Positions 41,349-44,284 of a stretch of 64,000 bases of DNA are shown here, piece by piece. The notes under the pieces were generated by a model. The model saw only the letters and a program-made list of their open reading frames with translations, made no database searches and was not told the origin of the DNA. Made by a program: the position numbers and the translations under genes. The stretch's first letter is position 1. Every line of letters starts with the position of its first letter. The stretch is from assembly GCF_000801335.2 (NCBI RefSeq), contig NZ_JSEH01000007.1, forward strand, positions 1-64,000, read 5' to 3'. The DNA is from Desulfovibrio sp. TomC (GTDB lineage Bacteria > Desulfobacterota > Desulfovibrionia > Desulfovibrionales > Desulfovibrionaceae).

Positions 41349-41425
41349 TGGGGTGACTGATGGGGCTCGAACCCACGACAACCAGGGCCACAACCTGGGA
41401 CTCTACCAACTGAGCTACAGCCACC
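41349..41425 (-). tRNA. tRNA-His (anticodon GTG)
   Basis: The minus strand folds as a full cloverleaf: acceptor GTGGCTG/CAGTCAC, anticodon stem CCAGG/CCTGG with loop TTGTGGC and anticodon GTG, T-arm GTGGG-TTCGAGC-CCCAT. The base before G1 is G (the G-1 of histidine tRNAs), the discriminator is C73, and CCA is encoded. Confidence 0.97.
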
Positions 41426-41578: not shown

Positions 41579-42829
41579 ATGGATAAACTGCTCATCCGGG
41601 GCGGCAAGCCCCTTCATGGTCCCATCCGGGTCAGCGGCTCGAAAAACGCCGCCCTGCCCATCCTCCTTGCCGCGCCGCTGCTCACCAAGCAGGCTGTGGT
41701 CCACAATGTGCCCCGCCTGCGCGACATCCATACCACCCTCAAACTCAACGACATCCTCGGCTGTCCCTCCACCTTCGAGGGCAATACCGTCACCATGGAA
41801 CCGTCCACGACGTTAAATCCGGAGGCCCCCTACGATCTGGTGCGCACCATGCGCGCCTCGGTGCTCGTCCTTGGTCCGCTTCTGGCCCGCACCGGCCACG
41901 CCCGGGTCGCCCTGCCCGGCGGCTGCGCCATTGGCGCCCGGCCGGTCAACCTGCACCTGACCGCCCTGGAAAAGATGGGAGCCACCTTCACCCTGGAGGC
42001 CGGCTATATCGAAGGCCGTTGCGACGGCCTGACCGGGGCGGATATCATTTTCGACTTCCCGACCGTCGGCGGCACGGAAAACCTGCTCATGGCCGCCAGT
42101 CTGGCCCAGGGCACAACGGTCCTGGAAAATGCCGCCCGTGAGCCGGAAGTGGCTGATCTGGCCGATTTCCTTAACGCCATGGGGGCCAGGATCACCGGGC
42201 ACGGCACCTCGGTCATCACCATTGAGGGCGTTCCAAGCCTTGGCGGCGGCGTCTACAGCGTCATGCCCGATCGCATCGAAGCCGCCACCTACATGATCGC
42301 GGCAGCCATCACCGATGGCGAACTGCGCCTGGAGTGCTGCCCGTTTATGGAACTCGACGCCGTGGTCTCCAAGCTTAGGGAGATGGGCGTTGCCATCGAG
42401 GCCACCAATGCCGGCGTGGTGGTGCGCCGCCGCGAACAGCTCATTGGCGTGGATGTGGCAACCCAGCCCTATCCCGGTTTTCCCACCGACGTACAGGCGC
42501 AGATCATGTCGCTTATGTGCGTGGCCATGGGGTCCAGCTCCATCCGCGAAACCATTTTCGAAAACCGCTTCATGCATGTCCAGGAACTGGTCCGCCTGGG
42601 CGCGCAGGTCCGCACCTCCTCCCAGACCGCCTTTATCCGGGGAGCCAAGGGCCTCACCGGCGCGCCGGTCATGGCCTCCGATCTGCGGGCCAGCGCCTCG
42701 CTGGTCCTGGCTGGTCTGGCCGCCCAGGGCGAGACGCTCATTCAGCGCGTGTACCATCTGGATCGGGGCTATGAGGCCATGGAAGTGAAACTTCGTAACG
42801 TCGGGGCGGATATCGAGCGCATTGCCTGA
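41579..42829 (+). CDS. murA: UDP-N-acetylglucosamine 1-carboxyvinyltransferase
   Basis: 416 residues, the first dedicated step of peptidoglycan synthesis: transfers enolpyruvate from PEP to UDP-GlcNAc. [10 protein letters not shown] carries the conserved Lys-Asn, and [15 protein letters not shown] contains the catalytic Cys that fosfomycin attacks. ATG 41579 follows CTAAGGA; the in-frame extension upstream overlaps the tRNA-His promoter and is rejected. The enzyme is cytoplasmic. Confidence 0.96.
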
Positions 42830-42849
42830 CATCCGCCACGGAGGTCGCC

Positions 42850-43236
42850 ATGCCGTCAGTTTTTCGTGCCTTGGTTGTTATCGCCTGCCTGGCTCTGGCC
42901 GGGCCGGCCCAGGCCTACGGCCTTTTCTCCTGTGTGGACGCCGCCGGCCATGAGGTCTGCGTCATCGACACCGGAACGGCCACCGACATCGTGCCCAGCC
43001 AGCTCTGCAACGCCTCCTGCCCGCCTTGCGCCGGCCGCTGCGATGCGGCCAGGCGTTACGAGGGCCAGGCCGGACACTGGCAGAAAGGCTGGCAGGTGGC
43101 CCCGGGCATTGACGGCAACAACCGCATGGTTCCCGGGGCAGGTCCCCAGGAAGATGCCCGGACCATCCTGAACGAAGGGCTGGTTGCGCCCCAGTCGCCG
43201 CCGGTGCTGCCGCCGTCGGGCTACACCGGCTCTTGA
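42850..43236 (+). CDS. Small exported Cys-rich protein, unknown
   Basis: 128 residues. ATG 42850 follows GGAGG 5 bp upstream. A clear signal peptide ends at GPAQA (about residue 22). The first half of the mature part has eight Cys (FSCVD, EVCVI, QLCNASCPPCAGRC is the densest part), suggesting disulfides in the periplasm. The C-terminal half is Pro/Gly-rich. I do not recognise it. It lies 20 bp after murA. Its stop codon forms part of the -35 box of the next promoter. Confidence 0.72.
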   Translation: MPSVFRALVVIACLALAGPAQAYGLFSCVDAAGHEVCVIDTGTATDIVPSQLCNASCPPCAGRCDAARRYEGQAGHWQKGWQVAPGIDGNNRMVPGAGPQEDARTILNEGLVAPQSPPVLPPSGYTGS

Positions 43237-43261
43237 CGGGCCGCCCGGTTTGCGCTTAGAT
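43233..43261 (+). promoter_or_regulatory. Sigma-70 promoter of the leader transcript
   Basis: TTGACG (43233-43238), 17-bp spacer, TTAGAT (43256-43261). The expected start point is about 43268, directly before or at the A of the leader-peptide ATG (43269), which would make the leader message leaderless or nearly so. Confidence 0.78.
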
Positions 43262-43268
43262 TCGGCCC

Positions 43269-43367
43269 ATGCAGACTCGTCAGACCGCCACGCGCCTCGC
43301 TTTTTTCGGACCGTATTATTATTACGGCCTTCGCGCTCGCGGCTTGGCGGGTGGTGGGGCCAGATAG
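43269..43367 (+). CDS. Leader peptide with Phe-Phe and four Tyr codons
   Basis: A 32-codon frame: ATG at 43269, stop TAG at 43365-43367. Its middle reads AFFGPYYYYG: Phe codons at 43302-43307 and four consecutive Tyr codons at 43314-43325. Such runs are the sensing device of attenuator leader peptides (as in pheA or his leaders), where scarce charged tRNA stalls the ribosome. There is no clear Shine-Dalgarno, but the promoter predicts a transcript starting at or one base before the ATG. It precedes an aromatic-pathway gene with a terminator between. Too short for routine gene calling. Confidence 0.85.
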   Translation: MQTRQTATRLAFFGPYYYYGLRARGLAGGGAR

Positions 43368-43392
43368 GGCCACACCGCAAAACTCCGCCGAC

Positions 43393-43427
43393 AAGGGCCG
43401 CGGGCAACATGCCCGGCGGCCCTTTTT
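43393..43427 (+). terminator. Attenuator terminator of the aromatic aldolase gene
   Basis: Stem AAGGGCCGC/GCGGCCCTT extended by GGGC/GCCC around AACAT, with one bulged G, followed by TTT (five T in a row in all). An alternative pairing of 43335-43343 (GCTCGCGGC) with 43397-43405 (GCCGCGGGC, one G-U pair) would remove the left arm and act as antiterminator. The arm at 43335 starts 9 bases after the last Tyr codon. Confidence 0.85.
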
Positions 43428-43480
43428 CATAAGCGCTGCCGGGTCCCGGCTCCAGGCGACAACCGCCAGGGAGAACCACC

Positions 43481-44284
43481 ATGACCATCGGCAAATCCAT
43501 CCGTCTTGAGCGCATCATCAACCGCGACACCGGCCGGACCATCATCGTGCCACTCGATCACGGCGTCACCGTCGGTCCCATCGCGGGCATCGCCGACATG
43601 CGCGAGACCGTGACCAACATTGTGGCCGGCGGAGCCAATGCCGTGCTCATGCACAAGGGCGTTGTGCGCTGCGGCCACCGGGCGCGCGGCCGCGACGTCG
43701 GGCTGATCATCCATCTCTCAGCCAGCACCAGCCTGTCCCCCTTCCCCAACGCCAAGACCCTGGTGTGCACGGTGGAAGAAGGCATGCGCCTGGGGGCCGA
43801 CGCCGTCTCGGTCCACGTCAATCTCGGCGACGCCACCGAGGCCCGCATGCTTGACGACATGGGTCGGGTCACCGAGGCGGCCGTGTCCTGGGGCATTCCG
43901 GTGCTGGCCATGATGTACGCCCGGGGGCCGAAGATTTCCAACGAGTTCGACGCCGACGTGGTGGCCCACTGCGCCCGGGTGGGCAACGAGCTTGGGGCCG
44001 ACATCGTCAAAGTGCCCTACACCGGCGACCCGGACAGCTTTGCCAAGGTGGTGGCCGGCTGCTGCGTGCCGGTGGTCATTGCCGGCGGTCCCAAGACCGA
44101 CACCACCCGCGGCTTCCTGACCATGATCGCCGACAGCGTCATGGCCGGCGGCTCCGGCCTGTCTGTTGGCCGCAACATCTTCCAGGACCCGGACCCGGCC
44201 AAACTGCTGGCGGCGGTGACGGCCATTGTGCACGAAGGGAAAAGCGTCGATGCGGCGATGGAGATGCTCGGGCGGGGGGAATAA
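43481..44284 (+). CDS. ADH synthase-like aldolase (DhnA/FbaB family)
   Basis: 267 residues, a class I aldolase of the DhnA/MJ0400 type. The opening [17 protein letters not shown] and the Schiff-base Lys in [13 protein letters not shown] match the family, as does the phosphate site ([26 protein letters not shown]). In archaea and in Desulfovibrio, members make 2-amino-3,7-dideoxy-D-threo-hept-6-ulosonate, the first step of an aromatic amino acid route that bypasses DAHP synthase. The other family role is fructose-bisphosphate aldolase. The Phe/Tyr attenuator upstream strongly favours the aromatic role. The partner AroB'-like gene is not adjacent. GGGAG precedes ATG 43481. Confidence 0.86.

Follow-up and report, generated by a model that had tools for sequence, protein, structure and literature searches.

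A predicted tyrosine-sensing leader-peptide attenuator before a stand-alone ADH synthase gene of Desulfovibrio, and the family of aromatic leaders to which it belongs

The pheL-pheA, pheST and trpL-trp attenuators of Escherichia coli follow a four-region logic; their leaders have Shine-Dalgarno sites, and their targets are terminal-branch or synthetase genes. All of them are named in PMC11802643, which, together with PMC4046766, describes in its accessible sections the aroR-aroF system of Corynebacterium glutamicum, where an aromatic leader peptide attenuates a DAHP synthase gene and is reported to answer phenylalanine limitation (the availability of tyrosine is said in PMC11802643 not to matter). 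In Sinorhizobium meliloti, according to the accessible sections of PMC10117765, the trpL transcript begins with the very AUG at which translation of the leader peptide starts. With respect to the entry step of the aromatic pathway, E. coli divides it among the copies AroF, AroG and AroH, which answer tyrosine, phenylalanine and tryptophan (PMC5343134, as excerpted). Finally, for Desulfovibrio vulgaris, Table 7 of PMC1173090 (2005) gives a putative attenuator, taken from the Merino web database, before the aroA'-aroB'-pheA-aroF-tyrA-trp operon; in the accessible part of that paper, whose main text does not contain the word "leader", neither a leader peptide nor a sensor codon or an amino acid is named for it, and there is nothing on a stand-alone Tyr copy, a division among isozymes or transporters.

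The locus considered here lies in a window of 64,000 nucleotides, the whole stretch of Desulfovibrio sp. TomC DNA that was analysed. Judged by its protein sequence, the gene at 43481-44284 is an MJ0400-like ADH (2-amino-3,7-dideoxy-D-threo-hept-6-ulosonate) synthase: it passes the curated threshold of TIGR01949 (376.1 bits, cut-off 299.45), its closest solved chain is 2qjg (MJ0400, E 9.1e-95) and its best named matches come from Desulfovibrio sp. DV and Solidesulfovibrio aerotolerans. It is a stand-alone gene: an ORF matching AAA_26, presumably bioD, is the next large one and lies on the opposite strand. The host genome (G000, 5.07 Mb) has a second ADH synthase, 66% identical to the window copy (G000:C8:219774-220562), which is preceded by an F/Y/W leader with the run GFYFWFWF and heads an aro-phe-tyr-trp operon, with the one DHQ synthase II of the genome (G000:C8:220581-221543) directly 3' of it and then PheA, AroA, TyrA, TrpE, TrpG, TrpD, TrpC and TrpF. 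Family searches of this genome gave zero matches to both DAHP_synth_1 and DAHP_synth_2, and since there is a DHQ synthase II, aromatic entry through ADH synthase is likely in the host, in agreement with the proposal of an earlier sequence-only reading that the aldolase belongs to a route replacing DAHP synthase. The DAHP_synth_1 family also includes KDO-8-phosphate synthase. It was matched in 22 of the 40 genomes searched, one of them of the host genus (G003), a count that does not separate KDO-8-phosphate synthase and that speaks against generalising an entry through ADH synthase only.

The leader, promoter, terminator and alternative helix that the same reading had described before this gene are all present, and the features are as follows:

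43233 to 43261, + strand: promoter, with the -35 box TTGACG at 43233-43238, a 17-nt spacer and the -10 box TTAGAT at 43256-43261 (from the sequence and the relatives).
43269 to 43367, + strand: leader-peptide ORF of 32 codons; the transcript 5' end is predicted to coincide with its start or to lie no more than a few nt from it.
43275 to 43352, + strand: putative protector hairpin 1:2, 43275-43295 with 43333-43352 (from the fold).
43302 to 43307, + strand: TTT TTC (Phe-Phe), not conserved and probably not a sensor.
43314 to 43325, + strand: sensor codons TAT TAT TAT TAC (four Tyr).
43335 to 43405, + strand: antiterminator 2:3, 43335-43350 with 43385-43405 (from the fold, shuffles and alignment).
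43393 to 43427, + strand: intrinsic terminator 3:4 with T-run (from the fold and alignment).
43468 to 43473, + strand: Shine-Dalgarno-like AGGGAG of the aldolase gene (read from the sequence).
43481 to 44284, + strand: ADH synthase, stand-alone copy, 267 aa (TIGR01949, 2qjg).

The predicted peptide, MQTRQTATRLAFFGPYYYYGLRARGLAGGGAR, runs from the ATG at 43269, 7 nt 3' of the -10 box, to a TAG stop at 43365-43367, with 6 nt between the Phe pair and the Tyr run; with both strands of the 64 kb considered, this leader is the one ORF of 60 codons or fewer that has at least six aromatic residues within eight codons. A promoter scan of 42700-44000 returned a single site (shuffles lead one to expect 0.1), TTGACG-18-TAGATT, which has 9 matches out of 12. 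The ORF further upstream (42850-43236) encodes a small, Cys-rich protein of 128 aa which by eye is likely to have a signal peptide; it has no Pfam or NCBIfam match.

It is very likely, in our opinion, that this element is a ribosome-mediated transcription attenuator sensing charged tRNA-Tyr. Transcription would begin at the leader ATG or slightly upstream of it, and a ribosome would load on the resulting leaderless or nearly leaderless end. With Tyr-tRNA plentiful, the ribosome would cover the arm 43335-43350, the whole of which is spanned by the leader frame, the terminator (43393-43424) would form and transcription would stop. With Tyr-tRNA short, it would stall on the Tyr codons, a run that begins 21 nt ahead of the arm at 43335 and stops 9 nt short of it; the arm would then pair with 43385-43405, the terminator would be broken and the aldolase gene transcribed. 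Were no ribosome loaded, hairpin 1:2 might hide the arm and so favour termination.

In the fold, the terminator stem pairs 43393-43406 with 43410-43424 (-26.5 kcal/mol); a simple terminator scan did not report a hairpin at 43393. As the sequence-only reading had it, GCTCGCGGC (43335-43343) can pair with GCCGCGGGC (43397-43405), and the region folded alone gives the longer antiterminator 43335-43350/43385-43405, at a total of -46.9 kcal/mol. At this locus the alternative helix is only modestly above chance (7 of 200 dinucleotide shuffles are equally strong) because the region is very GC-rich, and the case for an antiterminator therefore rests on the relatives.

To assemble these relatives, 59 genomes (host included) were searched, 80 named loci were kept and 60 stretches were added by coordinates. 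Discarding tblastn matches that started after query residue 12, ended before residue 200 or had less than 120 nt upstream left 176 aldolase starts with at least 120 nt upstream, and merging identical regions reduced these to 147. A run with at least five aromatic residues in eight codons occurs in 112 of the 147 upstream regions of related ADH-synthase genes; the reverse strand gave 6 of 147, and dinucleotide shuffles gave about 3.2 per 147. Taking as a leader at least four aromatic codons in eight, and as a terminator a hairpin with dG of at most -12, we scored a leader in 124 regions, a terminator in 121, both in 118 and neither in 20; L033 and L084 count as terminator-less, although a hairpin with a T-run is present a few bases away from where the rule looks. 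By this rule the full device is absent in 29 of the 147, mostly unattenuated paralog clades and the second genes of tandems. Two groups of paralog clades have neither the full device nor a DHQ synthase neighbour, one comprising L051, L052, L019, L020, L023 and L064, the other L053, L059, L061, L066 and L068. Over the 118 relatives with both elements, the leader stop lies a median of 36 nt after the last aromatic codon, with a further 25 nt (median) from there to the start of the terminator.

This recurrence bears on the simplest alternative, in which the hairpin does no more than end transcription of the upstream 128-aa ORF and the leader is a chance ORF. The stop codon of that ORF does overlap the -35 box, so that the terminator would serve it too; nevertheless, aromatic leaders precede 112 of 147 related genes and the promoter-to-ATG spacing is nearly fixed (see below), and we give this explanation almost no credence. 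A chance ORF was rejected on the grounds of its recurrence in relatives and of its being the single ORF with six aromatics in eight codons in the 64 kb.

Within the host genus, all 13 aligned copies, counting that of the window, retain the Tyr run: it has four Tyr codons, except that there are five in L035 and that it is split as YYYGY in L011. TTGACG is likewise found in all 13, at 35-37 nt 5' of the ATG, and the frame is also kept, while the sequence between the promoter boxes is not conserved. A check of the Tyr run, the frame and the alternative hairpins in orthologues, as the sequence-only reading had suggested, thus came out in favour on every point. That reading had also supposed that the window copy senses both tRNA-Tyr and tRNA-Phe, a stall at either FF or YYYY freeing the arm. 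The window copy, L034 and L014 do carry two Phe codons before the Tyr run; yet these are the only 3 of the 13 copies with the pair, nine having one Phe and L037 none, and so we consider that dual sensing is unlikely and that a response to tRNA-Tyr is the better account of the window copy.

Control by a T-box or a metabolite riboswitch is another conceivable explanation, T-boxes being used by aromatic genes in other phyla. An Rfam scan of the window gives one match above the gathering score, a tRNA gene at 41352-41424 on the - strand, and in eight loci (L001 and seven others) no family reaches its gathering score. The Phe_leader family (RF01859) has no match in the window, and its best score among the eight loci is 31.4 bits (L081), as against the 55 needed. 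We regard an RNA sensor of this kind as extremely improbable, and continue with the attenuator.

The competing hairpins were examined in the 118 relatives by computing how well the leader tail pairs with a segment made up of the 5' arm of the terminator and 14 further nt, and by comparing the result with 200 dinucleotide shuffles of the tail. At most 10 of the 200 shuffles were as strong in 105 of the 118 relatives, where about 6 would be expected, and at most 2 in 90 (median z -3.4). Nine of the 13 misses are copies from the genus itself (L008, L010, L012, L015, L016 and L035-L038), which fall short because their GC-rich tails let the shuffles pair well too; the others are L103, L110, L147 and L166. 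For the alignment, 117 sequences (L147 was dropped) were clustered at 80% similarity, giving 50 non-redundant ones. In these, the antiterminator has 91.2% standard pairs and 19 cells changed on both sides; none of 500 shuffles scored as high on four of five measures (31 of 500 did on the fifth), and slid versions of the helix pair at 37-43%. The pair 31/110, for example, is UA in 28 sequences, CG in 14, UG in 5, AU in 1 and something else in 2, and since the terminator model assigns no partner to column 110, this covariation belongs to the antiterminator. The terminator itself has 98.8% paired cells and double changes at 10 of 12 pairs, but its presence was a rule by which the sequences were selected, which was not the case for the antiterminator. 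Both arms are invariant within the genus, so that the covariation comes from more distant relatives, the nearest being L040, the Tyr-type copy of Fundidesulfovibrio agrisoli, where GTTCGCGG faces CCGCGAAC. The putative protector is less uniform: 65 of the 118 relatives have a 1:2 pairing that outdoes 190 of 200 shuffles, and in the window copy, where 39 of 200 shuffles are as strong, the pairing does not exceed chance.

These helices also bear on the idea of a control without early termination, for instance one in which the leader ORF affects only ribosome loading at the aldolase gene. Against it, in 118 of 147 regions leader and gene are separated by a strong terminator with a T-run, the leader arm has the 5' arm of this terminator as its partner, and the fold places the aldolase Shine-Dalgarno sequence (43468-43473) outside both the antiterminator and the terminator helices; we find such a mechanism quite improbable. 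The proposal of a leader-peptide attenuator before an MJ0400-like aldolase is, on the other hand, supported by the gene's TIGR01949 and 2qjg assignments and with alternative hairpins that covary in distant relatives.

The leaders of most of these relatives are probably leaderless or nearly so, as had been suggested for the window copy, judging by the distance from TTGAC(A/C/G) to the ATG. For each of the 118, we took the in-frame ATG and TTGAC(A/C/G) whose distance was nearest to 36 nt, a rule which itself favours 36: the distance is 35-40 nt in 106, 53-65 nt in 7, and 5 have no such pair. A distance of 35-40 nt puts the predicted transcript start on the ATG itself or no more than about 5 nt upstream of it. 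Among 38 long ORFs taken from the window (a rough set), none has TTGAC at a leader-like distance. An SD-like tetramer precedes only 8 of the 106 leaders in the 35-40 nt class, as against 111 of 118 aldolase starts. Five of the seven leaders at 53-65 nt (L130, L141, L163, L165 and L169) do have one, as if a lineage had moved between two modes of leader translation. The 106 candidate leaderless leader peptides, along with these few SD-like relatives with longer 5' ends, offer a test case for leaderless translation.

Classified by their sensor codons, the 147 copies comprise 82 with pan-aromatic (F, Y, W) leaders, 12 with Tyr, 11 with Phe, 11 with Phe+Tyr and 2 with other leaders, and the 29 in which the full device is absent. 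A DHQ synthase gene follows within 2.5 kb in 74 of 80 pan-aromatic copies versus 5 of 33 copies with other leaders (these counts leave out 5 copies whose flanks are short and the 29 in which the full device is absent), although the Fisher p of 9e-16 overstates the independence of what are related ADH-synthase copies. All five exceptions are Phe+Tyr copies; none of the 12 Tyr copies, and none of the 9 Phe copies with adequate flanks, has this neighbour. On a protein tree made by a quick method, the leader classes need 24 changes versus 60.7 in shuffles, the Tyr copies forming one clade that includes one Phe+Tyr copy and the Phe copies falling in two separate places. Twelve of the 14 genomes of the genus have both a Tyr copy and an operon copy; G007 has the Tyr copy only, and G002 (69% complete) has a single copy with a pan-aromatic leader, cut by a contig end. 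In G017, G026 and G033, a Phe copy occurs alongside a pan-aromatic one. The window gene may thus serve as a tyrosine-controlled isozyme beside the pan-aromatic operon copy.

Operon content was read from the flanks of 41 loci, of which 40 were used, that of L191 being too short. Every one of the 31 loci that include trpE carries W in its leader (G042 was judged by its leader), and five of the nine without trpE nearby (G016, G019, G021, G025 and G032) have no W in the run; these five are related, so that few independent events lie behind the Fisher p of 2e-4. The exceptions are G014, G018, G030 and G037, which have W with no trpE nearby. In the nine genomes a TrpE search located six genes at other sites; G016, G021 and G025 (89, 95 and 83% complete) yielded none. 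Each of the six separate trpE genes has a short W-containing ORF upstream, in a scan made without a shuffled control, and in three of them (G018, G032 and G037) this ORF coincides with a match to the RNA model described below. Across the family, leader sensor codons tend to match the gene content.

To obtain a wider view of this promoter-leader-hairpin chassis, we built a covariance model from 50 sequences, the window copy among them. Among the matches listed, 54 of 58 genomes, host and training genomes included, are matched at E up to 0.01. The model finds the window site at E 9.5e-9, a match that gives no independent support since the window copy was a training sequence. Twenty further matches, chosen by eye, were examined. 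Six (L253, L254, L255, L257, L258 and L259) precede Na+/solute symporters of the SSF type and have Phe runs, with Phe/Tyr in L255, which suggests that these symporters import aromatic amino acids, phenylalanine in particular. Three others (L260, L262 and L268) are Trp-codon leaders before DctP binding proteins of TRAP transporters, suggesting tryptophan as the transported substrate. The remainder include one TrpB-like gene with Trp codons, two trpE and one ADH-synthase leader. L261, L263-L266, L269 and L270 (7 of the 20) were rejected, having no convincing aromatic leader and looking like ordinary terminators. A search of 118 genomes drawn evenly from the phylum gave six with a match at E of 1e-5 or lower; four of the six (host included) belong to the family of the window, and the device thus appears to be largely confined to this lineage; such leaders also occur at ADH-synthase loci labelled Desulfobacteraceae or Desulfobacterales, for example L097, L103 and L110. 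Two more matches may be mentioned. L277 (about 1380-1591), from a distant family of the phylum, has a leader with six Ala codons, and TTGACA 37 nt 5' of the ATG, before an ORF that by eye is aminotransferase-like; it may be an alanine attenuator or a product of chance. L274 (about 1390-1593; 62.8 bits) has a leader with Trp-Ile-Phe, and TTGACA 38 nt 5' of the ATG, before an ORF that by eye is an EamA-like transporter.

We lean, with some reserve, towards a general scheme in which a single chassis, mostly with leaderless leaders, governs much of the aromatic economy of the Desulfovibrionales, duplication and codon exchange having adapted it to Tyr, Phe and pan-aromatic ADH synthases, to Phe and Trp importers and to trp genes. 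This scheme would offer a testable answer to the question of how sulfate reducers that seemingly enter the pathway via ADH synthase could control that entry. The paralogs, differing in their sensor codons on a constant hairpin chassis, would constitute an evolutionary series for changes of attenuator specificity. The substrate of an unassigned transporter could be read from its leader, and the scheme predicts the amino acid imported by several such symporters and TRAP transporters.

A search of open-licence papers found no description of a leader peptide before an ADH synthase gene. Such leaders may also be listed in a comparative attenuation survey that the Lyubetsky group published in 2010. 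The statement of the sequence-only reading that it knew of no description for this gene thus stands for the stand-alone copy, within the literature searched, but not for the operon copy, in view of the putative D. vulgaris attenuator in the accessible part of PMC1173090; the gene family and the type of operon concerned there are those of the second copy of the host. The class of mechanism is an old one, and to go by the accessible parts of the sources, a putative D. vulgaris operon attenuator, aroR-aroF and a leaderless trpL were already on record; as far as we have searched, the novelty would lie in the leader peptides, in a Tyr copy that stands alone, in isozymes divided by their leader codons and in one chassis put to use again for importers. 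In both aroR-aroF, as excerpted, and the window element a leader peptide with aromatic codons is coupled to attenuation of the first enzyme of the pathway, but the former has a Phe-Tyr-Phe leader, a DAHP synthase and an actinobacterial host, and the latter a Tyr run and an ADH synthase. The trpL of S. meliloti, as its excerpts describe it, resembles our leaders in its leaderless start, and differs in its 14-aa leader and in its target, the trp operon (trpE), with no ADH synthase involved. With pheL-pheA, pheST and trpL-trp, as presented in the accessible part of PMC11802643, the window family shares sensor codons in a leader and attenuation; unlike those E. coli leaders, it is probably leaderless, has a Tyr-only version and targets the entry enzyme. 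Finally, the division among AroF, AroG and AroH is achieved by feedback inhibition and by TyrR and TrpR, whereas that among the ADH synthases would have come about by the exchange of leader codons and, if the scheme is true, would be its counterpart at the level of RNA.
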